DNA from: Aphrocallistes beatrix
Lineage: Eukaryota > Porifera > Hexactinellida > Sceptrulophora > Aphrocallistidae
Length of the DNA stretch: 64,000 bases
Direction: 5' to 3'
Assembly (NCBI GenBank): GCA_963281255.1
Contig: OY725493.1
Location: 557,550 to 621,549 of the forward strand
Part shown: one piece after another, positions 4,829 to 60,275 of the stretch
Layout of the letters: every line of letters starts with the position of its first letter
Numbering within the stretch: position 1 is the stretch's first letter
The notes under the pieces: model-generated
Databases searched by the model: none
What the model was told of the DNA's origin: nothing
Seen by the model: only the letters and a program-made list of their open reading frames with translations
Program-made: the position numbers and the translations under genes

Positions 4829-4868
4829 ATTCCTTTTTTGTTGTGTGCGACATAATCAGTTTGAATTA

Positions 4869-17805: not shown

Positions 17806-17846
17806 ATTCCTTATTTTGCTGTGTGCGACATAATCAGTTTGAATTA

Positions 17847-21004: not shown

Positions 21005-21299
21005 TTTCTAAGTTAATTTGATTTGTCTAGACTGAATAACATAGATTTGTATTTGTTATTGAATAAATTACTAAATTTGAATTAATAATAAATGAATCCA
21101 TTTATATGCTTCATAGCTAGTGTTATATTGGATTTATAACCCAATATATGTTCCCCTTTCATACGATCTTCAATATATTCTGATTCAGCATGATTATGTA
21201 GCATTTGTGAATTTCTTTTATTTATCAAGTTGAGAGTAGGGGCGGTCGAATATTGTAAAATCTAAATTCCATCTTTCGAGTAAACCTAGAATCACAGCT

Positions 21300-31565: not shown

Positions 31566-31685
31566 GTACTAATATGTATAAAATTAGAATGATGAAACGT
31601 TATTTACAGATTGATTCTAACGCCTTCACTCTTGAAAATATTCATCATTACACATCTCCCTTAATGCATTAGGATAATAGTCACA

Positions 31686-35771: not shown

Positions 35772-35820
<49 letters not shown>

Positions 35821-36986: not shown

Positions 36987-38814
36987 ATGCTAGTGAAAGT
37001 TAGAGGACCACGAGGTGTGATAACGGTTGAAGTAGATTTAATTGAGAAGATAAGCGAGCTAAAATTGAAAATTCATGACAAAAGTTCTCACCCAGTTGAG
37101 AAACAAATCCTGCTCTACCAAGGGCATCAGCTAGAAGATGACAGATGCCTCGAAGACTACCGAATCACTCATGAAAGCGAGTTAGAACTGCAATTGAGAC
37201 TGAAAATTAACATTAAAACCGCGCACATGTCCCAATTCAGTATTGAATGTGTCCCAACATTTCGAATAATTGATCTGAAAGATGACATATCAAGAAAAAC
37301 AAATATTCCTTCCAAGCATCAGGTACTGTCCTACAAAGATGTCGAGCTAACAAACCAACAGCTCCTCAGTGAGTGTAGAATTGTCGATGATTCCGTCCTG
37401 CTATTGAGTGGGGTCACTCAAGTGACTGTTAATTTGCCTTCAGGCAAGAGTATTGCTTACCCTACGTCTTTACGGACCAGTATTTTTGAGGTTAAAAAGG
37501 TAGTGAGCATAAGTGAACGCATCCCTACCAGTCAGCAACAGTTCAATTACAAAGGTAGGGAACTGAAAGATGAACAGACTTTACACTCTATCTATTATAC
37601 AAACTCGGATTGTATTAATTTGGTTGTGAAACTCCTTCCTTCTGATGACACTTATATAATCGTAAAGAATATTAATGGAGACAGGCATTTAGTTCGAATC
37701 AATCGACTTAGTCCCGTTGGTAGTATTGTGGATACTATAGGTGCCCAAAACAATTCTGTCAGTCTCTATTTCAGAGGAGAAAAGCTGCAAGATGAAAACG
37801 TCCTAAATTACTATGAAAACATTCAATTGTTAAGCGAGTTAGTCCTGGCGCCTTGTGACAATACAATCCCAGTTGTCATTACGAATATCAATGGAGAAGT
37901 GAAGACTTTCTTTCTGGATCCAGATGAAGATATTGACCAATTAAAATATAGGATTAGGGACTATTTTGAACTCCCACAAGAACATCTAAAACTGTTTCAC
38001 AAGCATTCTGTTCTCATGAGGGAGGGAGCAGTGGGATCTTTTGAAATCGCAGCAGGAGACCAGCTTCTTTTCGGGCCAGAGGAATCAACTAAAGTCACTG
38101 TACTTCCACCCAGCCGCCCTATTGATATCCTGGCGCTACCTAATGATGATATATTAACGTTGAAACAGAGAATATTTCGGAAAGAAGGAATATCTGTCGA
38201 ATTACAGGAGTTGAGTTTTCAGGGGAATGTGTTGGAAGATAGGGCGATATTTGATGACATCTCTAGCGACCCTGGCATTTCAAATTTTAATCTCTTCCTG
38301 AACATTCGAAGTTCTGAAACAATGAAGGTCAAGATTCGAGACTTGGAAGGAAACTGGTTTAACATTAGTAAGGTTGATGAGTTCTGGACTGTGGACAGAC
38401 TGGTTTTGAATCTGAAGAGAATTCTCCCACTCCAGGAAGAGGATCTGTTTGTCTGCAAAGATCTAGTCATGGATCAGGACAGACTCCTGTGCAACTATGG
38501 CATTGCAAACTGCCCTGAGATTTGGATTGTGAACCAAAGACCACATTTAGTCACTGAACGCTCTGCCATTCAATCACTACCTGTTTCCCCGCCTACATCC
38601 TATGATGATGAATCACCACAGCCTTCCAATGCTCCGTTTCCTTTGCGGGGTTCTAATAATAACTTAAGATCAGTACCTGACAACCGTAATAGAGCTCAGA
38701 AATTTCACAGTCAACACAGCGAACCAAAGTTTGATTCCAAATATGATGGATTTTATGAGCAAAGGCATGGTTCATGGGATGCAAGTTCGCGAGATATGAC
38801 ACGACAGATAGGTC

Positions 38815-38854
<40 letters not shown>

Positions 38855-39470
38855 TCTCTGTCAACAAAAGCTGGGTGCAACACAACAAGACTCATTACTC
38901 CAGCATTCTACCTACCAACAAGGACAAGAAACGATGCCTCAAAAATACCCATACCAACAAGATCTACAGCAACCTCCTTACCAACAATTAACACCAGCAG
39001 TTCTGGATAAGGATCCTGTCAAATCAGATTTACCCTTTCAGAATGTGACTGCCAATTTAGGTCTGTTGAACATCGCGGGGCTCTCTTTAGACACGAGGCG
39101 GGACTACTTCGGTCAGACAGTGTCTAGTGACACGTCTTCAGACATTCTATCACCGATAATGCATCCCCAAGCCATGCACAATGTTAATGATACCAGCTTT
39201 GAACGTAATGACGTCACTATGCCTATTGAGCAGAGGTATGAAGGGCAGATATCGGTGCTATGCAGTGTGGAGAGGCAGAAGAACCACTTCATGGTGTCAA
39301 TGAATGACAGCGACCTCGTGAGTGAGCTAGCTTCTAAAATTAGCCTGAGACTGTCCGTTCCGGAGGATAAATTTATCCTGAGATATGGCTTCGAAGTGCT
39401 GGGTTCTCAGAGAACACTCAGTTCTTATTGTTTGCAAGAGATTTCGACAGTGAATATCGAACTTACATAA
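36987..39470 (+). CDS. Multi-ubiquitin-like-domain protein B
   Basis: An 827-residue open frame in one exon. Seven ubiquitin-like folds fill about residues 1-520. They are followed by a Ser/Pro-rich linker, a poly-Gln run (38816-38850), more Gln/Tyr-rich sequence, and an eighth ubiquitin-like fold at the C-terminus (YEGQISVLCSVERQKNHF to the end). Domains 4 and 5 (DRHLVRINRLSPVG; DYFELPQEHLKLFH) match domains 10 and 11 of protein A (DKHLVRMHSLDTVG; YQFELPTEHTKLFY) in the same order, so A and B are tandem paralogues. No Gly-Gly end. The function is not known to me. Confidence 0.8.
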
Positions 39471-40476: not shown

Positions 40477-43400
40477 ATGGCTACGAATGCACTAGCTCTA
40501 CCAGCTGAGTTGAACGAAGAGTTAGAAACGATCAAAAGCATTCTAACTCAAGATACGCGTGTGGTTCACTCTCAAGATGGAACAATAATGGTAACTCTGG
40601 ATTTACCGAGAGGAGAAATGGAGACAGAAAAGTCTCACGAAATCACATTCATTCTCTCAAGTGAGTTGTTTGATGTTGTTTATTGTACTCTGTTGACTCT
40701 TTGTTTTAAAGTTCCTTACAAAGACGATTATTTAATCTTTGACGCTCAAATATCGATATACAACTATTGTTGTTACTTAGGGAGAAGAAATCTCGGAGTA
40801 TAGTGGAATAAAAATGTAATTAGGATATTTATATATATATATAGACTCAATTAACATAATTTTGAGGTTTAGTTGTAACTTATAACTTTGTGTGAAGTCC
40901 TGTCATACCACAGCTTGCTCCACTGCTCCATTGCCCAGCACCACGGCCCCCCACAGGCTCCAAACCTGGGGGGGACCGGCCCACCCCAGGTACCCACACT
41001 TGGCGCCTATGCACCCAAGGGACTGGCCGTTATGTACAGGTGGTCGTAGTATAGAGTGGACTATCAATGTTAATGTTATTTTAGCGAATCATTAAGATCA
41101 CTTTGTAGGACAGATCCCGTGAAATATGTGTAATATACTCTCTAAACCTGAAAATATTCCCTTAAAATGCTCGATACGGATTTCCATATACTCTTGGATG
41201 CAGTGTTTCCCGCCGAGCGCGTTAATTTAGGACGCTTAGCTTGTCGAATAACGTGAATTTGTTGTGAAATAACGCAATTTACCCAAATAAACTGCACAAA
41301 AATTGCAAAACTAACCGCTTTCCAATAATCCTGAGGGAAAACTGTACGGACGTCCCGTCTTCCATATCAATAAGGCATCTCTATAATGGAATAATTGATG
41401 TTGCACTTTATTTCAATTTGTCAATGAGATACGTTTAATTAATATATAAGATGCCCTTAAGTTCTATTATTAGCGCAATATTTATACTCAGCAGCAACTA
41501 AAAATGGTTGAGATCTGATTGGTGAATCTATGCAACTTAAGCAATTTCTCGGCTAATTATCAGAAAAGTGCTTAGTTTCACAATTGTATCTTCGGAATGT
41601 TGTGCAATATAATATGTCAATCTTGTCACCTCAAATTCCACATATAACTCTGATACTGCAGAATATATTCTGTCTAGGAATATTTTTTATTGGCTACAAC
41701 GATGCAAAGTTTCCAATTATAGTACAAAATTTGTTATCTTTGAAAGTTCATTGAATAATACTAGTGTATTTATATTGAAAACTGTGGCCTAAATTGTTAT
41801 AATTAGACTGCAAATAAAAGATTCCACATTGCATTCCTAACTGTGAAATTGCCTATATATACCAACACAGTTTGATTTTTATAAAATACTACTACAAATA
41901 CAAATAACTTTCAATGGGGAATCAACATTTAAAGCCTAGGCTTAATTCTACAAAGAAGGCAAAAGCGACTAATGTTACTTCAATCGCTACAGCCGATTCA
42001 TCTGAATTTATTTTCTTGCTATCAGAAGAAGTCAAAGTACTCTACACTTCATTCCACACCATTAAACCTAACGAGGTGCTGGTATACTCTCCTGACATGG
42101 ATTATCAGTACAAATTCTACCCAAACGTAGAATCAAAGTTGGTTGGCATCGCTACACATCAGAACCTTGTCATACTAACTGAGTATAATGGGCTCGTTAC
42201 GACTTACACAGAAACGGGAGAACGAATTTCCAGACTGGAATTATGGTCCATGTTTCCCGCGTCTGATTTTAAGGAATTACATCTGGTTAGTTCTGTAGCT
42301 GATTCAGATGGAATGTTCTTTGGCGCCAAAAATCCTAACTGCATTCTGGCGGTAAATGAGTATCAGCGCTTTACAGTTATTTTGGCGGGAAAATGTATCG
42401 ATGTATGCGCACACGGCGATTTCCTGCTAGTTCTAATTTTAGAACTACAATCTCATTCGGTGTTAATCTGTAATAAAACCGGGGAATTCGTTGGAAAGAT
42501 TAGTTTGGGATTTTTATCTCAAAAACTTAAGTTCGCCATAAGTGAAGTTGGAAACTTTTATTTTAACACTGGTGCTGCCCTCATGAGCTGGAATGGTACT
42601 GGACTATCTACTCTAAAGAGAAAGTCTAAAATGTCTAGGAATAACATAGCTTTACACACACATGGAAAATTACTTGTATCTGCATTCAATAAGAAGTTGA
42701 ATGTGTATTCTATTTGAATATTTCTCATTTTACTTTTGTTTGTTGTATTCCTTCACTTGTTATGAAATAAAATGGGTACTCAGATCTTAATTAACAATTG
42801 CATGCATTGTGCATATGTATTGTCTAATACTTCAGTTATTATGTACTATGCCAATATTTCAGTTAGCTGATGTAGTAGTACTATGGCGATACTTCAGTTA
42901 GCTGATGTACTAGTTGTACTAGTTGATATTTTTTAGGTAATGTCTACCAAGTTAGAAATCGAATTTAGTTTAACACAGTAGTTTACAGTACCCGGCCAAA
43001 CGTATTCGACCACTTCCAAAACCCACATAAAAAAATTGTATTAAAGTAGATCTATTCATTCATAAATGAATAAGTACTCAAATTGCAGGAAATACTCTAT
43101 TTTTTTCACAAATTATTAATCTTCACATTCAAATTCTCATAATTGAGAGTCTCAACTCAAATACCGACACCCAAGTTTAACATATCTAGCTTTTGATGTC
43201 TGATTCTGCTTATTCCTAGTCAAGGCCATCTTATAGTATGAGCTCCGCGTATAATAATAACAATCGCGCTTCGCTTGCTTGCGCTGCGCGGCTGGCGGAC
43301 ACTTTGTGTCCGCCGGAGGCGCCCTTTGGGCGCCTGGGGTCACATTGATTAATTATAAGGGAAATAACATCTCTAAATATCTGTCCTACTGTTATAATCG

Positions 43401-46400
43401 ATATCGCAAGAAAAATCACTAAAATTATCAATTTTTAAAATTTTGATGAGTAATGATGACGTCATAACAAAGTGATGAGTCATCATTTTTGATGATAGTT
43501 GCATCATATGTAAGGTATGTTAGTATACAGATTCTATTAAAATTTCAGCCTTCTATCTCCTATAATGGCTGAGTTATGCTTGAATAACTGTATTGCTTAA
43601 CTTTTAAAAATGTGACAATGACGTCATAATTCCATGATGAGTCGACATTTTGCTCTGAGCTCAGAACTTACTGGAGTCATAGCCAAAAGACTCCCACATG
43701 CCAAAAATCAGCTTTCTGCGCCTGGCAGTTTCTTCAATCAATTCGTAATATATATATATGTATATATATACAAAACATTAATCGAGTTTTAATAGTAAGG
43801 ATAAGACTTTACGGTACGAACAACAGGTTTAATCTCGAATCCACGAAAAAGTTACGCCCTTATTACATCATCTCTCAATGATGACGATTAGTGACACAAA
43901 GTGGCACAGGTTGATAATTTTATAGTTGAAGATACATATTTGTTTATTTAAAGATTCAAAATGAGCAATTCGGATGTGTAGTTTACGAATTTGAAATAAA
44001 AAATAAAATGTTACATGTTCCTTTATGAATAGAGCCACTATAATACTAATTGTATGGAGGTTTCCGCGGGGTAGTGTATAAAAGTGTTAGATTATGTAGC
44101 TTAAACAGCTGTTGTGATCTGATTGGATGAGGACAAAACCAATTCAGTTTTACGAAAATGAATGTGCACTATTTCCTGAATGTTAGCTGAGATCATTTCT
44201 GATGAAGTACAGCTGTTATCGTTCTATTGTTATTATTAACACTATTATATTGCAATTTTTTTGTCCCAGCGATTTTGTGATATAACCGCAATATCACTTT
44301 TCATATTATGACATTAACATTCAAGCAAATTAGAGAGTCTTCTTCAACCAATAACATTCAGAGCTTGCAAAGTCTTTACATATTTCCCATTAAAGTGAAT
44401 GCATCATCACGAATATAAGCAAACGTAAACTTCTTCATTAATATCTGTTCCGAATATGCGATAGCCTCGCTAATTTATGGAAATTTCTTAAGAAAAGTTC
44501 GAAACAATGCGTTTGCGGTCGTTTGTGCCAAATATCACTGCATGAAAATATGGGTCAATCTATTGATAGTCTATTAACACTAAATAAAGATTTTAAAACA
44601 ATAATATACACTGCCTGGCCAAAAGTATTGGAACGCCATATTGCTTTGCATTATAAGTAATAATAAAATGGGTCTGTCTATGAAGGCCAATCAATTATAA
44701 CCTTAGAGTTAATGAAATCTGACATCAATTTCGAAATCTACACACCATTTTGCCCAGATTAAGCGGATAGCCCTATTAACCGAAAATATTTGTATTAGCT
44801 TCTATGTATGGGAGCTATTCCGGTCCTGCCAAAAGTGGCACGATTAAGCGGTTGACCCAATTAAACAGTGACTCTATTAAACGGAGTCGACTGTATCATT
44901 ATTATCTCCCTCATCTCACTAGGGACATATCCTCATAGTTCTCCCACGGTCTTAATCGACAGTTCCTCTCTCCCCTCTGACCTAGAGGAGCAACTGGACC
45001 TCTTGTCTGAATCTCTCCTCGGGATTCCTGCCCTCTTCTCTCTCTACCAGGCAGCAGCTGAGTGGGTGGAGAATAAAAGTGGGGAGGATTTAGAAAATAT
45101 TCACACCTCTACTCAAGTACAAGAAAATGTGAAGATTGAAGAGTTTGAGGTTTATTCTAGTTTTCCATTATATTTAGTTGTGCATTTTACTGCAGTTCCT
45201 AGCATGGGAAATGCCTTGTGTCATGATCTGTGTCGAACGTATGTGTTCGCTCCTGGAAATTCTATTGGACCAAATTGCACCAAATTTGGGCCATTCCTTA
45301 TATAGTGGAAGTTTGAACCTGGGTCCAAATTATGAAATATTTTCACTCCTTTCTACAAAAGATGAAACGAAAGATGAAACGAACTAACAAATCGTTACAA
45401 ATAACTCCGAAATTTCATGAGAATATTTTTTAAAAATTCGTTCAAAAAATGTACAGAAGTATAACGCTTCTTAACTACTTTGCAACATTGCAAATTTGGT
45501 CGTAGAGATACAAATCACCCATTCTTCCGTCCCGTCATTAATGACATTCTTCCACTCATCATCTGTTGTCTGTTAGATTAAATGTTGTTGAGTAGGTGCA
45601 AAGTGGTGATACGACTAAACCTGGGAATGTGGATCCATCTCTCTATGAAGGAATGGTGCGGTCTCTTGAAGAAGAAAAGAAACAACTGAGGGAAGCTCCT
45701 GAAACTGTTCCTGCCAAAAAGGGGAAAGGGAAATCGAGAAAGAAGGATGCTAGCAACGAGCAAACGGTAAGGAATGTTACAGCCGATTTATTTCTAACAA
45801 GCGCGCTTCGCTTGCTTGCGCTGCGCGGCTGGGGTCACATTGATTAATTATAAGGTAGATAACATACATCTGTCCTACTGTTATAATCAATATCGCACGA
45901 AAAATCACCAAATTTGTCAATTTTTAAAATTTTTGATGCGTAATGATGACGTCATAACAGTGATGAGTCATCATTTTTTGATGATAGTTACATCATATGT
46001 GAGGTATAATAATATACACATTTTATTAAAATTTCATCCTTCTATCACCTAAAATGGCTGAGTTATAGTCGAAAACTGAAATTTCTAATTATAAAAAAAG
46101 GTGACAGTGACGTCATAATTCGGTGGTGAGTCGACATTTTCGTATGAGCTCAGCCATAGCCAAAAGACATGCCAAAAATCAACTTTCTGTGCCTGGCAGT
46201 TTCTTCAATCAATTCGTTATATATATATACATTAATTGAGTTTTAATAGTAAGGATTTAGCAACAAGCTATGCAGTACTACGCTATGGTATTGCTGTAAT
46301 GAAATTTGATCTACACACAGTTTCTAAGACAACCATACATCCCAATGAGATAATCTCAGTTAAAATGAAGCTAATCTTCCCTTCATTGGCTGATCACCCA

Positions 46401-49400
46401 ACGACAAACAAACAAACAAATGACCACAAAAACAAAGAAATGACCACAAAAACAAAGAAATGACAAACAAACAACATATGACCACAAAAACAAAGAAATG
46501 ACAAACAAACAACAAGACCACAAAGTAACCTATAGGTTGCAGGGAGCCATTTGGCTCCCACAATACAAATGAAAAGAGATAAAGTTAATTTAGCTTAGAA
46601 TCAAATATATGCATTTTTCTCTAACTTGCGATGAAAAATTTGTGTTTGGACTTGAACTTGTACAAATTCCCATCTCAATATCTAATGCAGTGGTTCTCAA
46701 CCGGGGTGCCATTTGCTTCCTCTAGGGGTGCCGCAGGCCTTACCACACTTACATACTGCTTTATTTTATTTTCTATTGATACCATTGTCAATGTTGAATT
46801 TGATGATTGTCCTCTGACAATCCTCTGGAATAATTTATTACACAATATTCACAATAATTTCCTAGTTTATTAATTAGTTATTCTATAATAAAGTCGTAAT
46901 AATTCAATTCAATTTCCACTTTTACTATCATTTGTTCATTGGCCTGCCCCTAAGTCAAATTAAGGGGTGCCGCTGAAAGGAATAAGTTTAGAAAGGGCGC
47001 CGCGAGAAGAAAAAGGTTGAGAAACACTGATCTAATGGATGGGAGTAGATAGAAATTTAACCAATGAGAATTCTTAAATTTGTGGAATTCCTATCAAGAT
47101 TTATAGAAAATTTGTGCAATGGGATAGAATGAGAGTAGCGATTCCAGCTTGAAGGCTGCCGGGAATTTGATAAAATATTTTGAGCATTTCAAATCTAAAA
47201 TAAAGCCTTTTTCTCAATTCCGTCAACTTAAAAGTCTTCATGCAGATTACGATCGTGACGCTTAGCAGATAATATGAATACAGTAACCTTTTTATAAAAT
47301 GTTATCGCCTAAGCCGCCCCTGGTCGTGTTTCATTGACAGAGTGAATATGTCCTGTAGCAAGGGTTCCCAACCTGGGGTCCATGGACCCCTTAGTGGTCC
47401 ACAGAAGATATCAAGGGTCCACAGGATTAAATTTTGTATTACGATTAATAGGAGGGACCACAGAATAAAAATGAAAATTGCTATGGGGATCCACAGCCAA
47501 ATAAGGTTGAAAACCGCTGTACTATAACCTTAAAGTACGCTTCTAGGAATCTGCTTAAGATTTGAAGGCTGAACTTCTTACAGGTAAGGAATGTTACAGT
47601 CGATATATTTTCTAATTCAGCAACAAACCTTACAGTCCACACTATGTATTGCTGTAATGAAATTTGATCTACACACAATATCTTGAACAACCATACATCT
47701 CGATGAGATATTCTCAGTTAAAAGAAACTATCTTCCTTCCATTGGCTAACCACCCAACAAACAAACAACGATTGACCACATTTAATGGTCACTTTAATTG
47801 TGGTCAATTGTTGTTTGTTTGCAGCTTCGGTTGTTAGTTGCAGGGAGCCATTTGGCTCCCACAATACAAATGAAAAGAGATTAAGTTTAAAATCAAATTT
47901 ATGCATTTTTTCTTTGAGGATACTTTTAGTATCAAACGTCATTTATCTGCCATTTGCCCATGCAATAAGTGTTGAGTAAGAATTCTTATCAACGTCAATG
48001 CATTTGTTTAAAAGCATTTCTTCTAAAATGCCTGTCAACAAATATTAGAATTGAGTCAGAGATCATCTGTTCTAGCTGTATTGTTACTGATCAAGTGGAC
48101 CCATAATTATATTTAGCCCCATCTCACAAATTTTAACATATGACGTCACGAGCGGATCTTTGGGGAAAATTTTTGTCCCCAAATTTTATAAAATGTTATC
48201 GCCTAGGTCACGTCGTGTTTCATTGACAGAGTGAATATGTCCTAGAGCAAGGGTTCCCAACCTGGGGGTCCATGAACCCCTTAGTGGTCCACAGAAGATA
48301 TCAGGGGTCCACAGGATGAAATATTGTATTAGAGGGGGACCACATAATAAATGAAAATTGCTATGGGTCCACAGCCAAATAAGGTTGAAAACCGCTGTAC
48401 TAGAAAGTTCAAATAAGCTTCTAGGCTAGGATTAAAATATATTTAAGATTTGAAAGCTAAACTTATTCCGTATTTTCGACGAACAAACAGACAGGTAAAG
48501 AATGTTATAGTCGATCTATTTCTAATTCAGCAACAAGCTATGCAGTATTACACTATGAGTACACTATGTATTGCTGCAATGAAATTTGATCTACACGCAA
48601 TTTCTAAAACAACCATACATTTCGATGAGATAATCTCCGTTAAAATGAAACTACTCTTCTCTTCATTGGCTAACCACCCAACAAACAAACAACGATTGAA
48701 CGCAATTAAAGTGACTTGTCCAGCTTCGGTTGGTAGGTTGCAGGGAGCCATTTGGCTCCCACAATACAAATGAAAAGAGATTAGTTAATTTACCTTGAAG
48801 TCAAATTTATGCATTTTTCTTAACTTGCGATGATAATTTGTTGTTTGGAATTGAACTTGTACAAATTCCCATTTGAATATCTAATGGATGGGAATAAATA
48901 GAAATTTAACCAATTACAATTCTTAAATTTATGGAAATCCTATCAATATTTATATCTGCATTTTCGCAGAAATTTTGCTGTGCAATGGGATGGAATGAGA
49001 ATAACGATTCCACCTTGAAGGCTGCCGGGAATTTGATAAAATATTTTGAGCATTTCAAGTCCGAAATAAAGCCTTTTCTCCCAATTACGTCCATATTTGT
49101 ACTTAAAAGTCTTCAATGCAGATTACGATCGTGATGCTAAGCAGATATCCTTACTATTAAAACTCGATTGTTATTTTTGTATATATATATATCTGTAACG
49201 AATTGATTGAAGAAACTGCCGGGCTCAGAAAGCTGATTTTTGGCATGTGGGAGTCTTTTGGCTATGGCTCCAGTAAGTTCTGAGTTCAGACCAAAATGTC
49301 GACTCATCATGGAATTATGACGTCATTGTCACATTTTTAAAAGTTAAGCAACACAGTTATTCGGGCATAACTCAGCCATTATAGGAGATAGAAGGCTGAA

Positions 49401-52400
49401 ATTTTAATAGAATCTGTGTACTAACATACCTCACACATGATGCAACTATTATCAAAAAATGATGACTCATCACTTTGTTATGACGTCATCATTACGCATC
49501 AAAAATTTTTAAATTCACAAATTTGGTGATTTTTCGAGTGATATCGATTAGCACAGTAGGACAGACATATTTAGAGATGTTATCTCCCTTATAATTAACC
49601 AATGTGACTCCAGGCGACCGAAGGGAGCCTCCGGCGGACACAAAGTGTCCGCCAGCCGCGCAGCGCAAGCAAGCGCGAAGCGCGCTTGTTATTAATATAG
49701 CACTACCTTGTTAAGAGAGCAGAATAAACATTTTATAAAACTTGATAATTTGCTAACAGATCAATCTTTCTACGTTCTAAACCTAAATCATAATGAAACA
49801 GTCACAATTTCATTTTATTTCGTTGCAACTCGCAACCTAAGTATTATAACCATGTTTTATATTACTAACTTTTTTTAACTAAAAGTTGTTTTGATTATTA
49901 ATCACTCATTTTTGTTGATTCGACTGGATTATTTTGATTGCTTATACATATTTAGTTTTGCTTTGAAGATACTTTTAGTATCAAACGTCTCATCCTGCCA
50001 TTTGCACATGTAACAGTGTTGAGTAAGAATTCTTATCAACGTCAATACATTTGCTTAAAAATAACTATCTCTTCTAAAATGCCTGTCAGCAAATATTAGA
50101 ATTGAGTCAGAGATCATCTGTTCTAGCTGTATTTTAACTGATCAAGTAGACCAGTCTTCGTAAGCTTTTTGAACTGAATATAACTTGATAAACTGAAGTA
50201 TGTATTACTTCTCGATATACGTATGTATTATATATACATTAAGAATCAGATGTTGTATTCATAGGCAGATCTTCTGAGGTGCTAGGTGGGGCAAATCCCC
50301 CATAATTATATTTAGTCCCATCCCCTCAAATGTTAACATATGATGTCACAGGCGGATCTTCAAGGGAAAAGTTGTGTTTTGTCTCTTATAAAATATTTTT
50401 ATACCTAAGCCGCCCCTGATCGTATTGCATTGACAGAGAATGTCCTAGAACAGTGGTTCCTAACCTGGGGTCCATGGACCCCTTAGTGGTCCACAGAAGA
50501 TATCAGGGGTCCACAGGATGAAATATTGTATTAGAGGGGACCACATAATAAATGAAAATTGCTAGGGGGGTCCACAGCCAAAAATGTTGAAAACCGCTGT
50601 ACTAGAACCTTAGAAGGTTAAAATACGCTTCTAGGATTAAAATATGTTTAAGATTTGAAGACTGAACTTATTCCGTCTAGGCGAAGAAGCAGACAGAAGA
50701 GAGCAGTGGAGAGAAGAAAGAGGCGATGAAGTCTGCCACTGATGTGATCCATCGGATTATTTGGGACCCTGAACTCCAATCGGAGCACTTTACCATCGGG
50801 TACCTGGACAGGTTCGTGGGGATTATTGAAAAACCGTTTACGGAGTTCAGCTGGGAGGATTTAGCTACTGCCGACCTGGATGTACTGGCAATCCCGAAAC
50901 ATAGGATTCAGTATTTCAAGTATAAAACTGAGGTTGTTTGGGATAAGAACAAGATGATGGATAAAGTGTACGGATCTCGCGGCACGAATGTTACGATTCA
51001 GGAAGTGATTGAAGAGTATGAGGCCAAGCACCCTCAGAGTAAGCCTTCTGGTGAGTTGTCCCTCTATCCATCCATCCATTCATCCATCCATCCATCCATC
51101 CATCCATCCATCCATCCATCCATCCATCCATCCATCCATCCATCCATCCATCCATCCATCCATCCATCCATCCATCCATCCATCCATCCATCCATCCAAC
51201 CATCCACTGTACAATTATTCATTTCTTGACAGAAGTGGTGACTGAGAAAGTTGTCGCTGAATCAGAACCACAAGAGAAACCCGTCACCACAGAACTTGAT
51301 ACAGACACACTATTGGAATTAATAATGGGAGATTCGGATGAGGAACTGGATGATTACGTCATGAGTGACGTAGCTAGTTTCAACACTACGAGGGCAGTGA
51401 GCAGGAAGTATAAGAGCAAGGATAGACCCAACTACTTCCTTTGTTTCAAGGTTGGTAGTGCGGGTTTCGTTTGAATGCAGACAACATCAGCCATATGCTC
51501 TGTTTAAACAAGAATAGCGATAACTTTACTTAGTTAAGATTCAGTGGCTTACATCGTTTGATTTTTGTTTGAAGACTTTGCAATTTAGGCATGAATCAGG
51601 CTAGGCGTGAATTCTCATTGGTTAATCTAAGTGTTTAGTTCAGAATGAGGTGTTTGTGCCACTCTAGGTTACAGACGGTCAAATCCGTGAACAGGTCAGG
51701 GTGCTACAAGAAGGAGTGGTGTCCAACTGCCCTATTCTCTCAGAGGGTTGTCTTCCCCCTAACAGACTGCACGTGACGCTTGTAATGCTGCGGATCGATA
51801 CTGAAGAGGATATGTACAAGGCAATAGAGGTGATAGGGAACTTCCAGAGACAGCTGGTCAGGATCCTACCTCAGTTCAATAAGATTGAGATCAGCGGAGT
51901 TGACTGCTTTAGAGATCAGGTCAGTATAGTGCAGTATGCTGTCACCATTTTAATATTCAAACTTATGTGTCCTTTCACCGAGTTTGAACACTTTGTGTCT
52001 GTGTGAAGCTTCGTAGTTATGGAGTCATCTGAAATGTTCATTCACGCATTGCAGATTACTTTCGATATGTGAATGGATTTTTGTGTTTTGAATTGAATTA
52101 AAAATGAAGTAAGTGTGTGAGAATTCTGCACACACACCATTTTCCATGTTACAAATTTGTTTAGTTTAGTTTAGAGATATTAATGGAACAAGATTTCATT
52201 GAGATAAAATAATTAAAATCTAACATTTCTGAATGGAATTGTTTGTGTTTATATACATATTTTATTGGAACAGTAAATTCATATCGAACTTGCGGAGATA
52301 CAATCTTGTCCAGTTTCTGGATCAATTTTTGAAATTCTCTGAGTTGGGGTTTGTATTCCTTCCTTGGACTGCTGCTCAACCAGGATACCATATATGCCTG

Positions 52401-55400
52401 GAGGAATGTAGGGAGCTTGTGTAGCCATCTCCCTTTGATTCCGGTTTCTTCTCTCAATACCGCACTGGACGATACAGAATAGTACAATCAGGAGTGAGGT
52501 GAAGTATTGTGTCAGGATTAAAAAGCTTAAAATTGCCAATTTGATTATTTCTTCTGTAGAAAATTTACAGTTAACATCCATTTTACTTAAAATTTCTTAG
52601 TTAATGTCCCGACATGTCCTTTATAAGCTTTCTACTGTGAAGCCAGTGATGCATCCTCGTGTATCTGCTCTATATTATCTCCGATGTAGAATTGAATTTA
52701 TGTAAAAGTTACGTAGAATTTCATGCTTCTTTAGTAAAATGGAATAACCCCAGCTCAGCAACAATAGCAGTTTGTGAATCCAGATTTTGAACTCTGAACA
52801 AAGGCATTTGTTTGTTCATTTCATTCAAACTGCTCTTATATTTATACATAGATGCATGGCATGACGTATCTATCTATGCAGGAATATTTCTATTGAAAGA
52901 CATCATTAGTTGTATGGGGTTGGTTTCAAACTATGTGATATGGGTTCTCTTATTCCGAATAAGGCTAGACGGTTTCTAAAACTTACCAAATTCAACATGC
53001 GTCAGAAACGAGTGGCTTCCCTCTTACAGTGTTATATTTCCATACAAACTACTCAGGTTTTGAAGGAATTCCCATTGGATTTCTAGTTAGAATCGTTCTG
53101 CATTTTGATTGGAGAATACTGGAGTTACACATGCCATTAGTTGAGATGTATAGTTTTCATAATAGACAACTTTGACTCTTCTTTTCAAATCTAAAATACA
53201 ACTTATTAAAATGCTATAATTTCTGACGAGTTCGTTTGTATACATTGTATAGATTGCCATCGTTTGTTACCTATTCTCTCCACATAATCACTGCAATGGA
53301 AAGTTTCACCCTGCTCTGGCATCGAATTATTTCTTCTGAGATTGTAATCCTTTGTTTCTGTTGAGTAATGTATATCAATAGTTCGAACAAACACAGTATT
53401 GATTGATCCATTGCTAATCCATGCTAAGTAAATGCTAGCTTCACCCTTTTAATTCAAATATTTATGAGAAATCAATATTGATTTACATAAAATATCCGTG
53501 TATATCTCAAATACTCTAATAAAATGGGTCAATAGAGGAAGTTTAAATTCAGTTAGGTCTGATCCTAACTTTTATTTCATGAAATTAATGTTTGTATTTA
53601 TTGTTACTATAAACTAGATTGTAACTAGCACAGAGAAATAAATGTTTATTGAAGTCTAATACTTATAAAGTGCAATGTTCTCTCATGCTAACTTGCATTT
53701 CTACAAACTCTCTATCTCGTTTCACTATCTAACTTTATTTACTCAACTGAATCGCAATGTTGAGTCATGAGAGTTCAGTTAGATCGTGCTTCCAGGAATG
53801 CTGGTAGTCTTGACAGAGCCATTCTTTCCGTTCGATTTGAATCGAATGTTGAGTTTCGAGAGGCCATTGAGTCGAAGCCAGCTCTTGATTGAATAACTAA
53901 AGCGATAATTTGATGCCATAGCAACGACTCGGGACAGTTTTTCTCAGAGAATTATTGGATTCAAAAGTAGCAATTTGGGAATTTGAATATATTAAATCAA
54001 AAATTTGTGTGGACACGGCTCGTTTGTAATTACATGAGTGTCTGATGATATCGTGTCATCTTTGTATTTATCCATGGTCCTGTTAATAGATTCTCTTAAT
54101 CCTCACTTACAAGGCTCTACGTTATTAACTCTATTGATTGATATTATTGTAACTCATCTGATTTACTGAACAAGATCCATGGTCTTTGTAAAGACGTGGT
54201 CAAAGTTCAGATTCCTTTATTATTGGTCAAAGTTATTTTTGAGATATTTGGGTTGGTTTTATATCAGCCAATAATACATTTTAAGGACTTAAAATCTATT
54301 GGTTCAGAGATATGGTGAAAACAGTTGGGACAGCATTCGTATTGAAATTATTAATGGTCCCAAATCTTTTCACCCCCTTCTGGAAGGAATTATTAGTACG
54401 TACTAACCGAGTTTGTACTACATAGAAATCTATGTATGGATTTTGGTTCAGAGAAATGAGTACGTACTAAACCAAGGGTGCTCAAACGGTGGCCCGCGGA
54501 TAATTCGCTTGTTTTCATTATTCATATATATATACAGTAGATTGACGTGCTTCATCACTCTCTTTAGCTAAATTTCGTAGTTTAGGTAGATTTTTCTGCA
54601 ATGTTATTCTACTATGAACAGTACATAGTATACCCCAAATCTAGGTTTAGTACTATTGTCCACTTGCTAGAAAACAAGCTGAGTTCAAAAGAGACATCGA
54701 ATGATTCGAATCCATTCAAAAGATTATAATTTAAGTCAATAACCTGAATTTACAAGTAGAATCCATTGTTAATGCAATATGAGGTCAATTAGTATAACTT
54801 GAAAATTGATTAAACTAAAGCCAGAGGCGATCTATGATTTGTGGCCCGTAAGGCGGAGCCTAATTTTTAAAGTGGCCCGTAGATTTAAAAATTTTAGCAC
54901 CCCTGTACTAAACCGAAGAACGTATTATCCGAGTTCCACTGTATCATTAGCTGATATAAAACCACCCCCAAATATCTCAAAAAGTAAAGTTACTAGTTTC
55001 GCAACTTTAAGCCCCAAACCGGACATATCCCATTATAAGTCTGCCTGCCTTGCGCGGCCACTAAATCAACTCCAAATTATTTGAATTTTTTATGGTGAAT
55101 ATTTCGTAATCAAGGTAACTATTTGAATAGTGTACGTCCAAAGACGAAGACTTTATCAAATTCTTTGGAGCACCCGACTGTATAAGTATCCTGTGTTCTA
55201 TTTTTAGGTAATCTTTGCTCAAGTGAAGGCAAACTCAGCTCTCACCCGTGTTGCGTCAGCCCTGAAGATCCAGCTGGAAGAAGCGGGGATAGGAACTCCT
55301 GGGAACCACGTCCCGTTCAAGCCCCACATGACTCTAATCAAGCTGTCCAGGCCTCTGGCCAAGAAAATAAACGCGACCAGGATTCCTTACGGATTCTATC

Positions 55401-58400
55401 AGGCGTTTAGAGAGTTCTATTTCGGAGCTCAGAGCGTTGAGCAGTTGATACTTGGGTCTATGTTCGAACTGAGCGAAGAGGACGGATTCTATGTCCACAA
55501 GTTCTCCGTTTCAAATCAGATATCTTGTCTGAGAGCAGACATGACAGAGATAGTATTAGCTCAGGTTCTGAAGAATATTTGTGCAGCTAACCGGTTAGTT
55601 TGCCTGAATAATTTAATTCTTCAAATTAGTATTTGCTAATCCTAATCCATGGTAATAATAAGCTTCCATACAAATCTATGTTATTCTAACCAGAGTTGCA
55701 CGCGGGCCGTGCGGGCCGAATATAATACTTTGCGGGATCCGCGGGCTGGAAATCTTGGCAGGACTCCCCGCGACAACCAACAACCGAGACGATGTTTTTA
55801 ATTGTCACGAGGAACCAATTATAGAATACTTACATAAATGGAACTTTGTTAGTTTCCACTTATTTGTTTATAGTTTATAACTTACAAAGCGGGGAAAAAT
55901 ATTTAAGCGGGCTTCTTGCGGGCCAAAAATATTTATGCGGGCTTCTTGCGGGCCGAATAATTTAGTTGCGGGCCGCGGGCCGGGTTAACTTAAAATTGCG
56001 GGCCGCGGTTACAAATTTCGGCCCGCGTGCAACTCTGATTCTAACCATGCATTCAACTTCAAAGTTAAACTAAACTAATTCAAATCTAGAATGCCTGTGA
56101 ATTCTATCCTGGGAATGCAACTTCCAATTTCACAGTTATCATCACTGAAGTTCTTTGAGTCGTATCAAAACCTGTTTCAATAATAAATGAGACTTTTAGA
56201 GTTCAATACTGATCATCCAATGCTGCATTTTAAACAAATTTAAGTATTACAGTCAACTCCGCTTAATCGGGACAAGTCTTCTGGAACAGAATGGTTCGCA
56301 TACATAGAAGCTAATACTAAATTTCATTGGTTAATTGGGAACTCCGCTTAATCGGGACCAAATAGTCTTGGTTAAGCGGAGTCACCTGTACTTAGTTAAT
56401 CAACATTCAATAAGACCCTATTCCCTTAATTTAACAATTTTCAGAGATATTTTTCTTTATTTAGATCTCTCCCTTGCGTCAAACAGATAGAAGAGATCTT
56501 GAGGAGAGACATCGATAAGTCGGGCTTAATCGACCAGATCCTCTCCATTGTAATGCACAATGAGACTCCTGTGCATCAAGATCATGACGTCATCATAATG
56601 CGAGGGCTGCCTGGAAGTGGGAAGTCAACACTCATTGAAAGTTCCACAGAGAAACAGCGAGAAATGCTGTCAGTTTGCAGTGCGGATGATTTCTTCACTG
56701 ATGACCTCACTGGCGAGTACAGATTCGATATTGAGAAGTTGAGTCGAGCTCATGAAGCTTGTTTCAATTCATTTCTGGAGAACTTGATTGCAGGAAAGCC
56801 TCTCATTGTCGTTGACAACACAAACTCTCAATTTTGGGAGTACGCAGTGTATAAGTGTTTCGCTAAATGTTTCGGTTATCAATGCTCAGTCCTTGAACTG
56901 TTCTGTCCTGATGAAGATAGGCTTAAGCAATACCACAACCGGAATAGACACAACCTGAATTATGATGTGATCGTAGCCATGCGGAACAGATGGGAAAACG
57001 ACAGAGAGAGTGTAGTTGTGGACCCCAAGCGACTACCAACTCACTCTCTTCTAAGTTTAGTCAAGAAGAAGGAGAGTCCAGCTAAGTCCAAACAGGAAAC
57101 TCAATCGAAGATATCTAGTGTCATCCTGCTAGCCGTGTTTCTATCGCAGCACTCACATAATGAACTGATAAAGCAATTCCCCCCAAAGTATAATGATGTG
57201 AATGCAGACCACGTTACTCTTCAGTTTATGCCATCGTTTGAACAGATCAGCAAGTACAAGCTAGGAGCCAGTGTGAGTCTGAACGTGCTAGGCTGTGTGA
57301 GTGATGAGAGAGTGCAAGCTGCTCCCATTCACTTCGACAGTGACATCAAATCCGACAATGCACACCCACACGTGACCATCAGTGTGTCCAACGAAGGCCA
57401 CGCGAAGGACTCGAACGATCTCTTGAATCGAATCGCGAAGAGAGAGGACCTGAACAATCTCCCGAACCGACCGGATAGTCTGGTTCTGAGCGGGACTGTC
57501 GGAGTTCAGGTGGAGTTGAAGGACGGACATTCTCAACGTGTGTTCTCAAGCGCAGAGCTGGAAGCGCTGAGGAGACCCAAACCCCCCAAACACGCCAAGT
57601 CCTCTCCCTCCATCGGCATCTACACCGGTCCCTCCGACCTGACCACTCAGCTGTTCGTGTTCGACTTCGACGGGACACTAGTGAACACGCCGGGACCTGT
57701 GGAAGGGCCTGGTCTCTACGAGAAGCTGACTGGGTCCGCTTGGCCGCACAGCAAGTGGACCGTGTATGGGGAGAGTTTGGTGCACCCCATGAGCACCCTC
57801 TGCAGCCCTGGGCCCGCTCTCTTCCAGTTCTTCTCCCATCAGTCTCGCTCTCAGAGTCTGACTGTCGTCCTGACGGGCAGACTCGAGTCCATCAGCGCCA
57901 GCGTGAGAGAAGTCCTCTCCAACTTCGGCGTCCACCCAGACATCCTCCTCTGCAAAGAGGACAACTCCCCTCTCCACACCCCTGAGTACAAAGCCGTCCA
58001 GCTGAGGAGGCTGCTGGAGCGGTGTCCCAAGGTTCAGTATGTGAAGATCTGGGATGACTTGGCTGAGAATCTCGCTTGCTTCGCTAACGTTACAGTCGAC
58101 TATCTCGACAAAGAGTTTGAGTTAGTCGATGTTCTCAGTTTCCAGCAACAGCCGCACTCCGCGAAGAAGAAAACTGGCAGCAGTTCTACCGCCAAAAAGT
58201 CGAAAGTCTTCCAGACAGTTCGCTTGTACGGCAAGGTACAGAGGGCATCTTTCCACGACGCAGTTGAGGATACCATTGGTCTTATCTCGTCTCTATGGGC
58301 GAGCTGTATCAGCTATGAAGGGTCTCCAGATGTACTCATCCATCCATTCGGCTCCTACCCTCTCAAGCGGATGAGTGACATCGATCTCTGTCTACTCGCT

Positions 58401-60275
58401 CCGGAGAGACTAACTCAAGCCGACTGCATTGCTCGCATGGAGAAGATCCTGACTCAATGTGGCATAGAGTGCATCCACACTTCTCCACTCTCGAGAGTGC
58501 CAAGGGTCAGCTTCCTGTGCAGATACACGGGCAGTCCTGACATCCAGTTCGATGTGATCTTCATGAGGATGAAGGAGATGCCAGAAAGTATGCCTGGAAA
58601 GCTGAAAGAATGGAAGAAGCTAGTCTCTACTGAGGACAGCTCTTCCTTGACAGCTCTAGAAGGACTGGAATTCTTGAACAGAGTCCGACAGAATTTGATA
58701 AAAGGTTAGTTTCTTCAATCTCGGACTTCTCTACTATCAATACATTGTAACATTTAAGTTTTAGTACAGTTTATAGTTTGATGACTCTCCCTTAGTTTGA
58801 AAACTCTAATTTGAAGTGACAATTCATCTTTAACAAACATCTTCCACTCCTCATTACAGAATAATGTATCTGTAATGAAGAGTGGAAGATATTTGTGATT
58901 CAATTGATTCGTGTTAACTGTCTTCCATTTGTAATTCGGTTATTTTAAAATATACATATTTTTTGCCTACTCTACCAAGAGTATTCATTTAGTAAATACA
59001 ACACTACTGAAAACCTGGGCGAGTTTGGATGATATTTTCTTTGCAAAAATTATGTTTTTAGTTGAAAACATTCCATTTGTATATGCTTAATGTATAAAGA
59101 GTTATTACACAGCATTTATGTGTGTGGTGCCACGATGAATTAGAGTTAAAGCAAAAAAACCGAGCACCCAGCTCTGGTCCCGAGGTGGCCCGGTTTTCAG
59201 AAGTAGACTGTAATATAATTTATTTACAGAAGCTAGCATTGAATGGTGCAGTGCACTGTGTGCTGGAATTAGTGTTAGTGTTGACTAGGAATGAGTGAAG
59301 AGGACTTGGCTGCACTGATCGAGATGGTAGTACTGATTCTACGGAGCAAGCACCAGAAAGGCAATGCATTCCACTGCATGAGAACATTCCACGTGATCAA
59401 GCTGTTGCTAGGTCTAGTGGAGTCGAAGCAGATAGCGAGGTCTTGTCTCAGCTCAGCTGATCAGCTGTTGAAGCAGTTCCTGCAACAGCTGACTGCTCTC
59501 AGCTCAGAAGAGTGGGCGGGATATCTCGGAGAGTTCGTTCCGACACAGTACATACCTAGGATACAGGTTAGCGACATAGGAATGTATTTTAATAATGTAA
59601 TGCTCTGTTTTTCATTGATCAACCAATTAGTTTAATTCGTTTATGTGAGCTATGATTGGATAGAATAGTATTCTCTTCTAGGAAATATTGACTGAGAGTG
59701 TCAGCATCACCAGCTCTCCTTCCTTCCCTTCCGTGGCTGTCTACCACAAAATGCTCTCCCCAGTCGCATTCCCGCTACCTAACCACGTTGCTATGGAGAT
59801 AGAGATAGAATGTCCTTCTCGCTGTCTTCAATTTCGCTTCGAAACAATGATAGAAGCAAAGTTTGGTTCTGTTGTGAGGAAGATTCTCGACTCAGGTGTT
59901 AAGCTCTCTCCTGGACCTTGCTCCCGTAAGAGGATCTGCTTCTGCATTCCTGACATTCCTGAGGAGAAGGATCGTTGCCATGCAATGATGAAGGAATTCT
60001 TTGCAGAATTTGAAAAGCTGAAACATGAAGTGAAGATTAGCTTCAACGGCCAATCAACAATAGAGTTTGGATCTCTCCTCCATCAAGGAGAGCTGGAAGG
60101 AATCTTCTCACAGATTCTGGAGTTTAAGTCGAGTGAGAAGACTTCTCTCTCCTTACCCACGAACCTGCAGAGCCATCAGAGACTGCTCGTCTACCAACTG
60201 CTAGAGAAGCACGGGTTGAGTCATGTCACGAGCTTAGAAGGCAGTGCGAAGAAGATTGTAGTGAAGAAATGTTAG
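40477..60275 (+). CDS. Multi-domain RNA-end repair protein, 'Swiss Army Knife' type
   Basis: Ten exons whose phases all agree: 40477-40660, 44923-45149, 45596-45766, 50681-51050, 51233-51450, 51668-51919, 55208-55593, 56465-58704, 59289-59566, 59682-60275. They give 1639 residues. Domains in order are RWD (about 10-125), a Lys-rich linker, MJ1316 (about 210-300), 2H phosphoesterase (383-590), P-loop kinase (645-800), second 2H-like (about 815-950), HAD (998-1160), nucleotidyltransferase (about 1185-1345), unassigned regions, and R3H-like (about 1595-1639). Known enzymes of these families open 2',3'-cyclic ends, remove or add phosphates and extend RNA, so one chain could remake damaged RNA ends. 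The RWD suggests docking to a translation or ubiquitin partner. No RNA ligase domain was recognised. Joining exons from 51919 to 55208 is inferred from phase and domain continuity. Confidence 0.75.
41854..41861 (+). promoter_or_regulatory. TATA box of nested propeller gene
   Basis: TATATATA lies 60 bases upstream of the ATG at 41914, inside intron 1 of the RNA-repair gene. It supports an independent promoter. Confidence 0.45.
41914..42717 (+). CDS. Nested single-exon propeller-like protein with N-myristoylation signal
   Basis: A 267-residue protein made of short beta repeats, for example [20 protein letters not shown] and [15 protein letters not shown], that resemble NHL or WD-like propeller blades. 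It starts MGNQHLKPR, a Gly2 context that suits N-myristoylation, so membrane attachment is likely (inference). It has its own TATA box and an AATAAA at 42766-42771. It lies wholly within intron 1 of the RNA-repair gene on the same strand. It has the same general style as the NHL gene at 7632 but no close identity. Confidence 0.68.
   Translation: MGNQHLKPRLNSTKKAKATNVTSIATADSSEFIFLLSEEVKVLYTSFHTIKPNEVLVYSPDMDYQYKFYPNVESKLVGIATHQNLVILTEYNGLVTTYTETGERISRLELWSMFPASDFKELHLVSSVADSDGMFFGAKNPNCILAVNEYQRFTVILAGKCIDVCAHGDFLLVLILELQSHSVLICNKTGEFVGKISLGFLSQKLKFAISEVGNFYFNTGAALMSWNGTGLSTLKRKSKMSRNNIALHTHGKLLVSAFNKKLNVYSI
42766..42771 (+). terminator. Poly(A) signal of the nested propeller gene
   Basis: AATAAA lies 49 bases after the stop codon at 42717. 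Confidence 0.6.
43261..43801 (-). mobile_element. Helitron-like non-autonomous element, copy 1
   Basis: A 541-bp element. On the minus strand it starts TCCTTACTATTAAAACTCGA and ends in a GC-rich hairpin region. It has no terminal inverted repeats and no target duplication, and it is flanked by A on the left and T on the right. The GC-rich end holds two perfect palindromes side by side, one built on GGCGGACAC and one on GGCGCCC, each with a TTT loop. It lies in intron 1 of the RNA-repair gene. Confidence 0.6.
44752..44893. repeat. pogo-like MITE, truncated
   Basis: Its right end TTAAACGGAGTCGACTG and internal words match the family at 26441. The left terminus is missing. It ends 29 bases before exon 2 of the RNA-repair gene and so contributes intron sequence close to the acceptor. 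Confidence 0.6.
45798..46255 (-). mobile_element. Helitron-like non-autonomous element, copy 2
   Basis: A 458-bp member of the family at 43261. The two palindromes near the GC-rich end are deleted, leaving GCGCGGCTGGGGTCACATTG. Matching empty sites exist at about 47608-47620 and 48520-48530 (TTTCTAATTCAGCAAC). The filled site reads TTTCTA then the element then TTTAGCAAC, with no target duplication. Confidence 0.65.
46421..46525 (+). repeat. Short tandem repeat, about 20-bp unit
   Basis: Repeated TGACCACAAAAACAAAGAAA with variants containing ACAAACAAACAACA. It is intronic. Confidence 0.7.
46688..47029. mobile_element. hAT-type non-autonomous element with exact 8-bp duplication
   Basis: A 342-bp element with ends CAGTGGTTCTCAACC and GGTTGAGAAACACTG. 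It is flanked by ATCTAATG at 46680-46687 and again at 47030-47037. The related intron unit around 48885 has ATCTAATG once and no insertion, so it serves as an empty-site control. Confidence 0.9.
47359..47519. repeat. hAT-like MITE, intron unit 1 copy
   Basis: Ends CAAGGGTTCCCAACCTGGGG and GGTTGAAAACCGCTG. The flanks TCCTGTAG and TACTATAA are decayed forms of the 8-bp duplication seen better in the third copy. Confidence 0.7.
48248..48397. repeat. hAT-like MITE, intron unit 2 copy
   Basis: Same element as 47359, copied with the intron unit. The flanks are TCCTAGAG and TACTAGAA. Confidence 0.7.
49148..49688 (+). mobile_element. Helitron-like non-autonomous element, copy 3
   Basis: A 541-bp member in plus orientation, starting TCCTTACTATTAAAACTCGA and ending GCGAAGCGCGCTTG. 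Both internal palindromes are present. The left flank is A and the right flank is T. The matching empty site is in intron unit 1 near 47271-47282 (CTTAGCAGATAATATG). No duplication is seen at the target. Confidence 0.68.
50451..50600. repeat. hAT-like MITE, intron unit 3 copy
   Basis: Ends CAGTGGTTCCTAACCTGGGG and GTTGAAAACCGCTG, with flanks TCCTAGAA (50443-50450) and TACTAGAA (50601-50608), a 7 of 8 match. Confidence 0.75.
50681..51050 (+). other. MJ1316 domain (exon 4 of the RNA-repair gene)
   Basis: Encodes [20 protein letters not shown], then [33 protein letters not shown] and a VYGSRG end. The spacing of RIIWDP, the GYxDRF turn, PxHRIQYF and VVWD is the signature of the MJ1316 (former DUF504) family. 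That domain is proposed to recognise RNA 2',3'-cyclic phosphate ends and is fused to 2H domains in LENG9-like proteins. Confidence 0.8.
51066..51197 (+). repeat. (CATC)n microsatellite
   Basis: About 33 repeats of CATC with one variant unit (CATT) near the start, inside intron 4 (51051-51232) of the RNA-repair gene. Exon 4 stays open through it, so intron retention would add a His-Pro-Ser-Ile repeat before a stop ending at 51229. Confidence 0.95.
52279..52581 (-). CDS. Small single-pass membrane protein, antisense in intron 6
   Basis: A 100-residue open frame with an N-terminal half made of a strong hydrophobic segment ([21 protein letters not shown]), then a basic ERRNRNQR and a soluble tail with [15 protein letters not shown] at 52620-52625 (TATAAA on the minus strand) lies 39 bases before the ATG. 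It resembles a small membrane adaptor; the family is not recognised. It lies antisense in the intron between exons 6 and 7 of the RNA-repair gene. Confidence 0.5.
   Translation of the reverse strand: MDVNCKFSTEEIIKLAILSFLILTQYFTSLLIVLFCIVQCGIERRNRNQREMATQAPYIPPGIYGILVEQQSKEGIQTPTQRISKIDPETGQDCISASSI
52620..52625 (-). promoter_or_regulatory. TATA box of the antisense small membrane gene
   Basis: TATAAA on the minus strand, 39 bases upstream of the ATG at 52581. Confidence 0.4.
52641..54472. other. Intron 6 remainder, nothing recognised
   Basis: AT-rich intronic sequence between the antisense small gene and the hAT element at 54473. No coding signal or clear repeat was seen. Confidence 0.5.
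54473..54905. mobile_element. hAT-type non-autonomous element with exact 8-bp duplication
   Basis: A 433-bp element with ends CAAGGGTGCTCAAAC and the near-inverse TTTTAGCACCCCTG. Exact duplication TACTAAAC lies at 54465-54472 and 54906-54913. It contains repeated GTGGCCCG words. It is intronic. Confidence 0.88.
55691..56037. mobile_element. hAT-type non-autonomous element rich in GCGGGCC
   Basis: A 347-bp element with perfect ends CAGAGTTGCACGCGGGCCG and CGGCCCGCGTGCAACTCTG. Exact duplication ATTCTAAC lies at 55683-55690 and 56038-56045. The subterminal regions are packed with GCGGGCC words, as expected of hAT transposase-binding repeats. It is in intron 7. Confidence 0.92.
56250..56398. repeat. 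pogo-like MITE, TCGGGAC subfamily
   Basis: Ends CAGTCAACTCCGCTTAATCG and TTAAGCGGAGTCACCTG, flanked by TA at 56248-56249 and 56399-56400. It is in intron 7 and is the inverse of the copy at 27267. Confidence 0.75.
56465..58704 (+). other. Kinase, second 2H-like, HAD and nucleotidyltransferase (exon 8)
   Basis: One 2240-base exon. The P-loop kinase has GLPGSGKST (650-658) with a CSADDFF segment and VVDNTN, as in polynucleotide kinases of the N4BP2L/T4 type. Next come DHVTLQF (His852) and PHVTISV (His905), a second pair of HxT motifs about 50 residues apart. The HAD domain has VFDFDGTLV (Asp1003, Asp1005), LTGR and IWDD. The nucleotidyltransferase has [16 protein letters not shown] (Gly1232, Asp1241, Asp1243) and FDVIF (Asp1299). 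From about 57540 the GC content is clearly higher than in the kinase part. Confidence 0.82.
58840..58891. repeat. Hairpin in intron 8
   Basis: ATCTTCCACTCCTCATTACA is complementary over 20 of 21 bases to the arm ending at 58891, with a 10-base loop. It lies shortly after the exon 8 donor. Confidence 0.75.
59289..60275 (+). other. C-terminal region with R3H-like end (exons 9-10)
   Basis: Exon 9 is helical ([20 protein letters not shown], then FHVIKLLL) and could be the helical partner of the nucleotidyltransferase. Exon 10 holds an unrecognised alpha/beta region, then [30 protein letters not shown] and KKIVVKKC. That is the pattern of an R3H single-strand nucleic-acid-binding domain, although the expected His after Arg is Tyr (RLLVY). 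Confidence 0.6.

Follow-up and report, generated by a model that had tools for sequence, protein, structure and literature searches.

How much of an RNA-end repair pathway can be encoded by a single animal gene? This question is raised by a 64,000-nucleotide stretch of the genome of the hexactinellid sponge Aphrocallistes beatrix (positions 557,550 to 621,549 of contig OY725493.1), hereafter the window, in which ten exons with GT-AG introns, between positions 40477 and 60275 of the forward strand, join in phase into one protein of 1639 residues with a single stop codon at its end. The ten-exon gene and the size of its product had been claimed in a preliminary description of the locus, and both length and phase are borne out by the rejoined exons. 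In order, the chain carries RWD, MJ1316, AKAP7-type 2H, P-loop kinase, second 2H, HAD, nucleotidyltransferase and R3H domains. Judging from sequence, we consider it probable that we are dealing with a single intact gene whose product processes RNA ends, all in one chain, as an enzyme of the “Swiss Army Knife” (SAK) type.

Pfam and homologue searches, structure prediction and residue counts were run on a 1636-residue version of the protein (exon 7-8 junction 55564/56445) or on its parts, which differs from the 1639-residue version in about 20 residues between the first 2H domain and the kinase and has residue numbers smaller by 3 beginning with exon 8. Pfam families scoring above cut-off were RWD (7.2e-9), MJ1316 (8.8e-27), AKAP7_NLS (8.8e-36), AAA_33 (1.5e-13) and HAD_SAK_1 (PF10307; 1.1e-6, 29.0 bits vs. 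a cut-off of 25.6). The start codon and the first half of the RWD lie in exon 1 (40477-40660) and the second half in exon 2 (44923-45149), the domain spanning about 40507-45065. Taken separately the two exons score 15.0 and 15.6 bits and joined 36.3 bits, and the domain is retained at 51% identity in the closest relative, P0001, which rules out that the RWD is a stray exon. Exon 3 (45596-45766) is a linker, exon 4 (50681-51050) holds MJ1316 at about 50726-50947 (PF04457, 6.7e-28), and exon 5 (51233-51450) is again a linker until the first 2H domain (PF10469) begins at about 51427. This AKAP7-type domain runs through exon 6 (51668-51919), with its first HxT motif at residue 425, and exon 7 (55208-55593), with the second at residue 514, until about 55495, and none of the 47 long relatives (P0001-P0047) has lost either histidine.

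The large exon 8 (56465-58704) encodes the kinase (about 56577-57074), a CNPase-like second 2H (about 57102-57533), a HAD phosphatase (about 57639-58139) and a nucleotidyltransferase palm (about 58236-58571). Structure prediction had been suggested for the entire product; the part modelled was that of exon 8 (56445-58702, pLDDT 84.5), and its predicted folds back all four of these assignments. The kinase fold is like those of polynucleotide and other small P-loop kinases, small-molecule kinases included, and the nearest folds are the CNPase catalytic domain for the second 2H, the 3′-phosphatase of T4 Pnkp for the HAD, and CutA, URT1, GLD-2 and TUT7 for the palm. A PDB sequence search with exon 8 alone gave three Rabphilin matches at 0.15-0.17, which were dismissed; a profile search of the PDB gave better results, although matches to the first 2H and to the R3H were mixed in, as its other rows were full-length. 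The family tRNA_lig_CPD scored 19.7 bits, below its cut-off of 23. No Pfam family matched the nucleotidyltransferase region, which is assigned from the palm fold and a GS...DxD...D triad of the poly(A) polymerase and terminal uridylyltransferase kind. Exon 9 (59289-59566), the region after the palm, has no Pfam match and may be the helical part of the transferase. Exon 10 (59682-60275) holds, at about 59763-60065, a ferredoxin-like domain that may correspond to the C-terminal one of poly(A) polymerases, and after it the R3H (about 60090-60272) and the stop codon; the R3H scores 26.2 bits in the whole protein, slightly below the cut-off of 26.8, and 29.8 bits with exon 10 alone. Hence the domains named at the outset are present, with RWD, MJ1316, 2H and HAD_SAK_1 found by profile and the nucleotidyltransferase by motifs and fold, and the catalytic motifs were found as described: HxT at 425 and 514, GKST at 655-658, DFDGT at 1003, GS at 1232 and DID at 1241-1243.

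The best relative, P0001, is a 1629-residue hypothetical protein of Oopsacas minuta, the only named organism among 48 homologue matches and likewise a glass sponge. It is 62% identical across 99% (1028 identical among 1619 aligned residues for the 1639-residue model), ranging by domain from 51% (RWD) to 83% (MJ1316), with 35 and 47% in two linkers, and it matches all ten exons in the genome. Among the in-phase GT-AG pairs tried, exon 7-8 junction 55593/56465 gives the best fit to P0001: it brings back a conserved stretch, and the two proteins align there without a break. Junction 55564/56445, with its 1636-residue product, fitted P0001 less well and was dropped. At every catalytic position, 46 or 47 of the 47 long relatives retain the residue; this includes each residue of the two H-x-T/S motifs in both the first 2H (425/514) and the second (852/905), and the P-loop lysine of the kinase (46/47). 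The HAD residues K1112 and D1134 are conserved in all 48 rows, i.e., the relatives plus the window. The 48th match (P0048), which covers 10% of the query, was left out of these counts. Because the catalytic residues are kept in this way, all five enzyme domains look active. In 29 long relatives, hand-picked from the 47 such that several without a listed R3H were left out (R3H is given for 37 of 47 overall), R3H, AKAP7_NLS and AAA_33 were each found in 29, MJ1316 in 28 and HAD_SAK_1 in 26 at E 0.001; 17 also have a CCCH finger (PF18044), and 4 an RWD.

The front half of the sponge protein points to a little-studied animal gene, LENG9 (leukocyte receptor cluster member 9). A query with MJ1316 and 2H retrieved 198 proteins, and many of the 120 listed are named LENG9, with matches from molluscs, hemichordates, amphibians, reptiles and others. 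From these 120 we picked 28 LENG9-type proteins of named animals, not all of them named LENG9 and the Nematostella row being partial; MJ1316 and AKAP7_NLS are present in 28/28, RWD in 10/28 and a CCCH finger (PF18345) in 11/28, and the H and T of both 2H motifs are invariant in their alignment. These counts suggest that the front half is LENG9-like and that the RWD is native to it. The preliminary description had called an RWD on this set unexpected, which does not hold given those 10 proteins and the 4 of 48 homologue matches for which RWD is listed (P0001, P0010, P0027 and P0038). LENG9-type proteins are 366 to 561 residues long, and among the listed matches they carry no kinase, HAD, transferase or R3H; the sponge protein, unlike 11 of the 28, lacks any CCCH match at thresholds up to E 1 and runs more than 1000 residues beyond the first 2H, where LENG9 ends, so it is a relative rather than a LENG9. 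A profile of eight such RWDs searched against the PDB came nearest to RWDD1 (2.8e-13), GCN2 (3.5e-10) and RNF25, and GCN2, IMPACT, RWDD1 and RNF14 are reported as GCN1 binders in a review (PMC10931611). The proposed tie to stalled translation may run through GCN1. LENG9 itself has no occurrence in that review and is not mentioned in PMC10835031, and the literature matches listed, as far as they extend, include no biochemical study of it.

We also built a tree of 58 hand-picked rows (the window with 25 long relatives from the set of 47, plus 32 short rows, 16 of them from named animals and 16 unnamed). The long forms cluster with three unnamed short rows at support 94/80, slightly below the level that the tool marks with a star, and the short forms of named animals fall outside; several end branches are long. 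The tree is unrooted and thus fits both loss of the back half and a later fusion. One short row, P0049, may be a piece of a longer gene because its contig has the same length (16972) as the one carrying P0174, a protein with the back half; another, P0051, groups as sister to the long P0043 and may be genuinely short.

What would such a protein do? From the domains, conserved residues and predicted folds we infer the reactions as well as their order, substrate, docking and ligase partner. Most likely, the enzyme heals broken RNA to 5′-phosphate and 3′-OH ends and can extend the 3′ end. MJ1316 and R3H would hold the broken RNA; MJ1316 is described as recognizing RNA 2′-3′ cyclic ends and as occurring in diverse eukaryotic fusions to repair domains (PMC6514570). 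The protein had been suggested to open or trim cyclic ends, which is better split between the two 2H domains. AKAP7 and its viral relatives leave 2′,3′-cyclic phosphates on cutting 2-5A (2′,5′-oligoadenylate) (PMC8406329), so that the second, CNPase-like 2H is the more natural candidate for opening a 2′,3′-cyclic phosphate; the first may act on RNA by cutting or trimming it, generating cyclic phosphates. The HAD domain would strip the terminal phosphate, the kinase would phosphorylate the 5′-OH, and the nucleotidyltransferase would add nucleotides onto the freed 3′-OH. The RWD would be a docking domain, possibly for GCN1. Extended to evolution, the animal ancestor would have had an all-in-one healing and tailing enzyme, docked by its RWD at GCN1 on collided ribosomes, that gave cleaved RNAs 5′-phosphate and 3′-OH ends unusable by RtcB, restored the 3′ end and passed the RNAs to an ATP-dependent ligase; glass sponges would keep it whole, and LENG9 would be the damage-recognition half that survives in other animals. 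We offer this extension tentatively, and think it unlikely to be right in full.

Other readings of the same chain can be weighed against healing. CutA, URT1, GLD-2 and TUT7 are enzymes that tail RNAs, and their folds are the nearest to the transferase palm; combined with the lack of a ligase domain in the chain, this would suit quality control, in which cyclic-phosphate ends are converted to 3′-OH and then tailed for exonuclease destruction. A 5′-kinase, however, has no clear role in 3′ tailing, yet 46 of 47 relatives retain its P-loop lysine, and in yeast and lancelet a kinase is paired with a cyclic phosphodiesterase for healing (PMC5434554). Quality control of this kind is therefore a rather doubtful account of the protein. 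It is less probable still that the front half serves chiefly as a phosphodiesterase for 2-5A or 2′,5′ linkages in immunity or RNA decay, fused to RNA processing domains. Its first 2H is of AKAP7 type (8.8e-36), mammalian and viral 2′,5′-phosphoesterases of this kind cut 2-5A to leave cyclic phosphates, and an oyster 2H enzyme degrading 2′,5′-oligoadenylate is cited (PMC8406329). On the other hand, MJ1316, the described recognizer of RNA 2′-3′ cyclic ends (PMC6514570), stands beside the 2H in 28/28 LENG9-type proteins, although these were retrieved by a two-domain query. A genome scan for OAS1_C gave no match, but its control matched nowhere, thus the scan says nothing on presence.

The gene model itself might have joined two separate genes, with exons 1-7 forming one of LENG9 type and exons 8-10 another that runs from the kinase to the R3H, given that front halves occur alone in other animals, that exon 8 by itself is a long open frame, and that the exon 7-8 junction had to be revised. 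We regard this as highly improbable, since Oopsacas P0001 is a single protein that aligns across junction 55593/56465, the domain set fills nearly the entire contig for P0010 (1666 residues, 5457 bases) and P0038 (1721 residues, 5567 bases), and P0027 is listed as a full frame on an assembled transcript.

If the protein is an RNA healing enzyme, as we prefer, who seals the healed ends? The preliminary description recognized no ligase domain, and the Pfam scan of the protein agrees, thus sealing must come from a separate ligase. RtcB joins a 5′-OH with a 2′,3′-cyclic or 3′-phosphate, and ATP-dependent ligases join a 5′-phosphate with a 3′-OH. Because the kinase and HAD would yield 5′-phosphate and 3′-OH ends, an ATP-dependent RNA ligase, for which such ends are suited, would be the favored partner over RtcB. 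The genome (100.5 Mb in 28 contigs) was scanned for both. For RtcB, three frames span the full model and a fourth match is partial; one of the frames, compared with the PDB, reaches about 808 bits against entries titled “RNA-splicing ligase RtcB homolog,” which we take to be human, and 461 bits or less against the remaining entries, which are presumably prokaryotic. A candidate for the ATP-dependent kind is an open frame of 235 residues at about 6823738-6824220 of contig C1, which carries an RNA-ligase domain (PF09414) and KLDG, an instance of the ligase motif KxDG; it has no PDB sequence match at E 0.1, and a relative of it, in pieces, is on C6. Two more PF09414 matches exceed the cut-off of 27, on C20 (36.4 bits; by eye this may be a DNA ligase) and on C17 (31.5 bits). 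Genome scans for PF09511, RLIG1 and CNPase (PF05881) gave no match, but their controls were also silent, and absence is not shown.

Compared with known systems, the protein is a further case of a family already named in Pfam (“Swiss Army Knife RNA repair,” PF10307), sharing with it HAD_SAK_1 and a HAD fused with RNA-end enzymes in one chain. It is not a new system, and the high novelty first attributed to the fused set is not supported because of that name. SAK proteins were reportedly described by Burroughs and Aravind in 2016, said to be the source of the family name. Demonstrated RNA repair activity of SAK proteins was not found among the literature matches listed, nor was an account of this protein among those listed on MJ1316, HAD_SAK, LENG9 and RWD/GCN1, and the part of PMC11090510 available holds nothing on this family. 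As in the sponge protein, a kinase is followed by a CNPase-like 2H in the kinase-CPD (cyclic phosphodiesterase) of yeast Trl1 and in the lancelet PNK (polynucleotide kinase)/CPDase. According to the available parts of the sources, Trl1 also contains a ligase (PMC3400036), which the sponge chain lacks, and the lancelet kinase and CPD are on a chain separate from the ligase (PMC3400036; PMC5434554); HAD, transferase, MJ1316 and R3H, present in the sponge protein, are not mentioned there for either enzyme. T4 Pnkp unites a 5′-kinase and a HAD 3′-phosphatase in the same order, whereas the sponge protein has the CNPase-like 2H between them plus flanking domains. With CutA, URT1, GLD-2, TUT7 and poly(A) polymerases the transferase shares the palm fold and the GS...DxD...D triad, and the domain after the palm may be like that of poly(A) polymerases, but unlike them it is fused to healing domains. 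What we add here is sharper domain identities, the link to LENG9, a pseudogene copy and ligase candidates. A fused RNA-end machine is thus seen at full length in an animal and tied domain by domain to LENG9, and this animal has, besides RtcB, a candidate ATP-dependent RNA ligase, together with an enzyme that would decide which of the two kinds of ends is made.

The back half was also searched for as a stand-alone protein, among candidates 0.55-1.75 times the query length, with 16 proteins found among 7996 scored. The five highest-scoring ones (740-797 residues, 65-66% identity) probably correspond to the large exon in further glass sponges, and the animal-named P0180 and P0181 cover just 15-19% of the query and are taken as its kinase part. 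One scan of viral contigs with P0002, which reaches close relatives only, found no relative. The excluded P0048 is a distinct fusion of 1615 residues whose listed domains are R3H, 3′-5′ exonuclease, kinase and an RNA ligase of the T4 type, names that we assume in part from the accessions; it is perhaps an all-in-one form that includes a ligase.

Scanned exon by exon in six frames, the genome has one MJ1316 match, that of the window. A partial copy at C10:1103500-1113400 is 92-95% identical and retains the exon 7-8 intron, with stop codons and a frameshift; it is a pseudogene, and a recent one as its likeness suggests. More decayed pieces form two clusters on C9, the first of which was inspected. 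The window holds the intact copy. Further AKAP7-type matches are on C18 and C24, and kinase-part matches at 35% on C11. Within the gene, comparison with P0001 supports the exon 3-4 join weakly and scores the exon 4 end at 51050 slightly higher than 51038, which may be the end instead. Intron 4 (51051-51232) consists mostly of ATCC-type repeats that are open in several frames and could mislead gene predictors, and intron 1 contains, on the same strand, an open frame of 269 residues (41908-42717) with no Pfam match at 0.1, possibly a nested gene.

Elsewhere in the window, GTPase-like frames and a P450-like frame, labeled by eye, recur in the same order at 4827-13436 and 17778-25181, which suggests a tandem segmental duplication. 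At 29174-31216 Pfam identifies a protein that combines VWA, Vwaint and Vint (Hint) domains; it is followed at 31665-39470 by frames in which strings of ubiquitin-like domains and poly-Q are visible by eye; Pfam finds seven ubiquitin stretches in the frame at 36963-39470.
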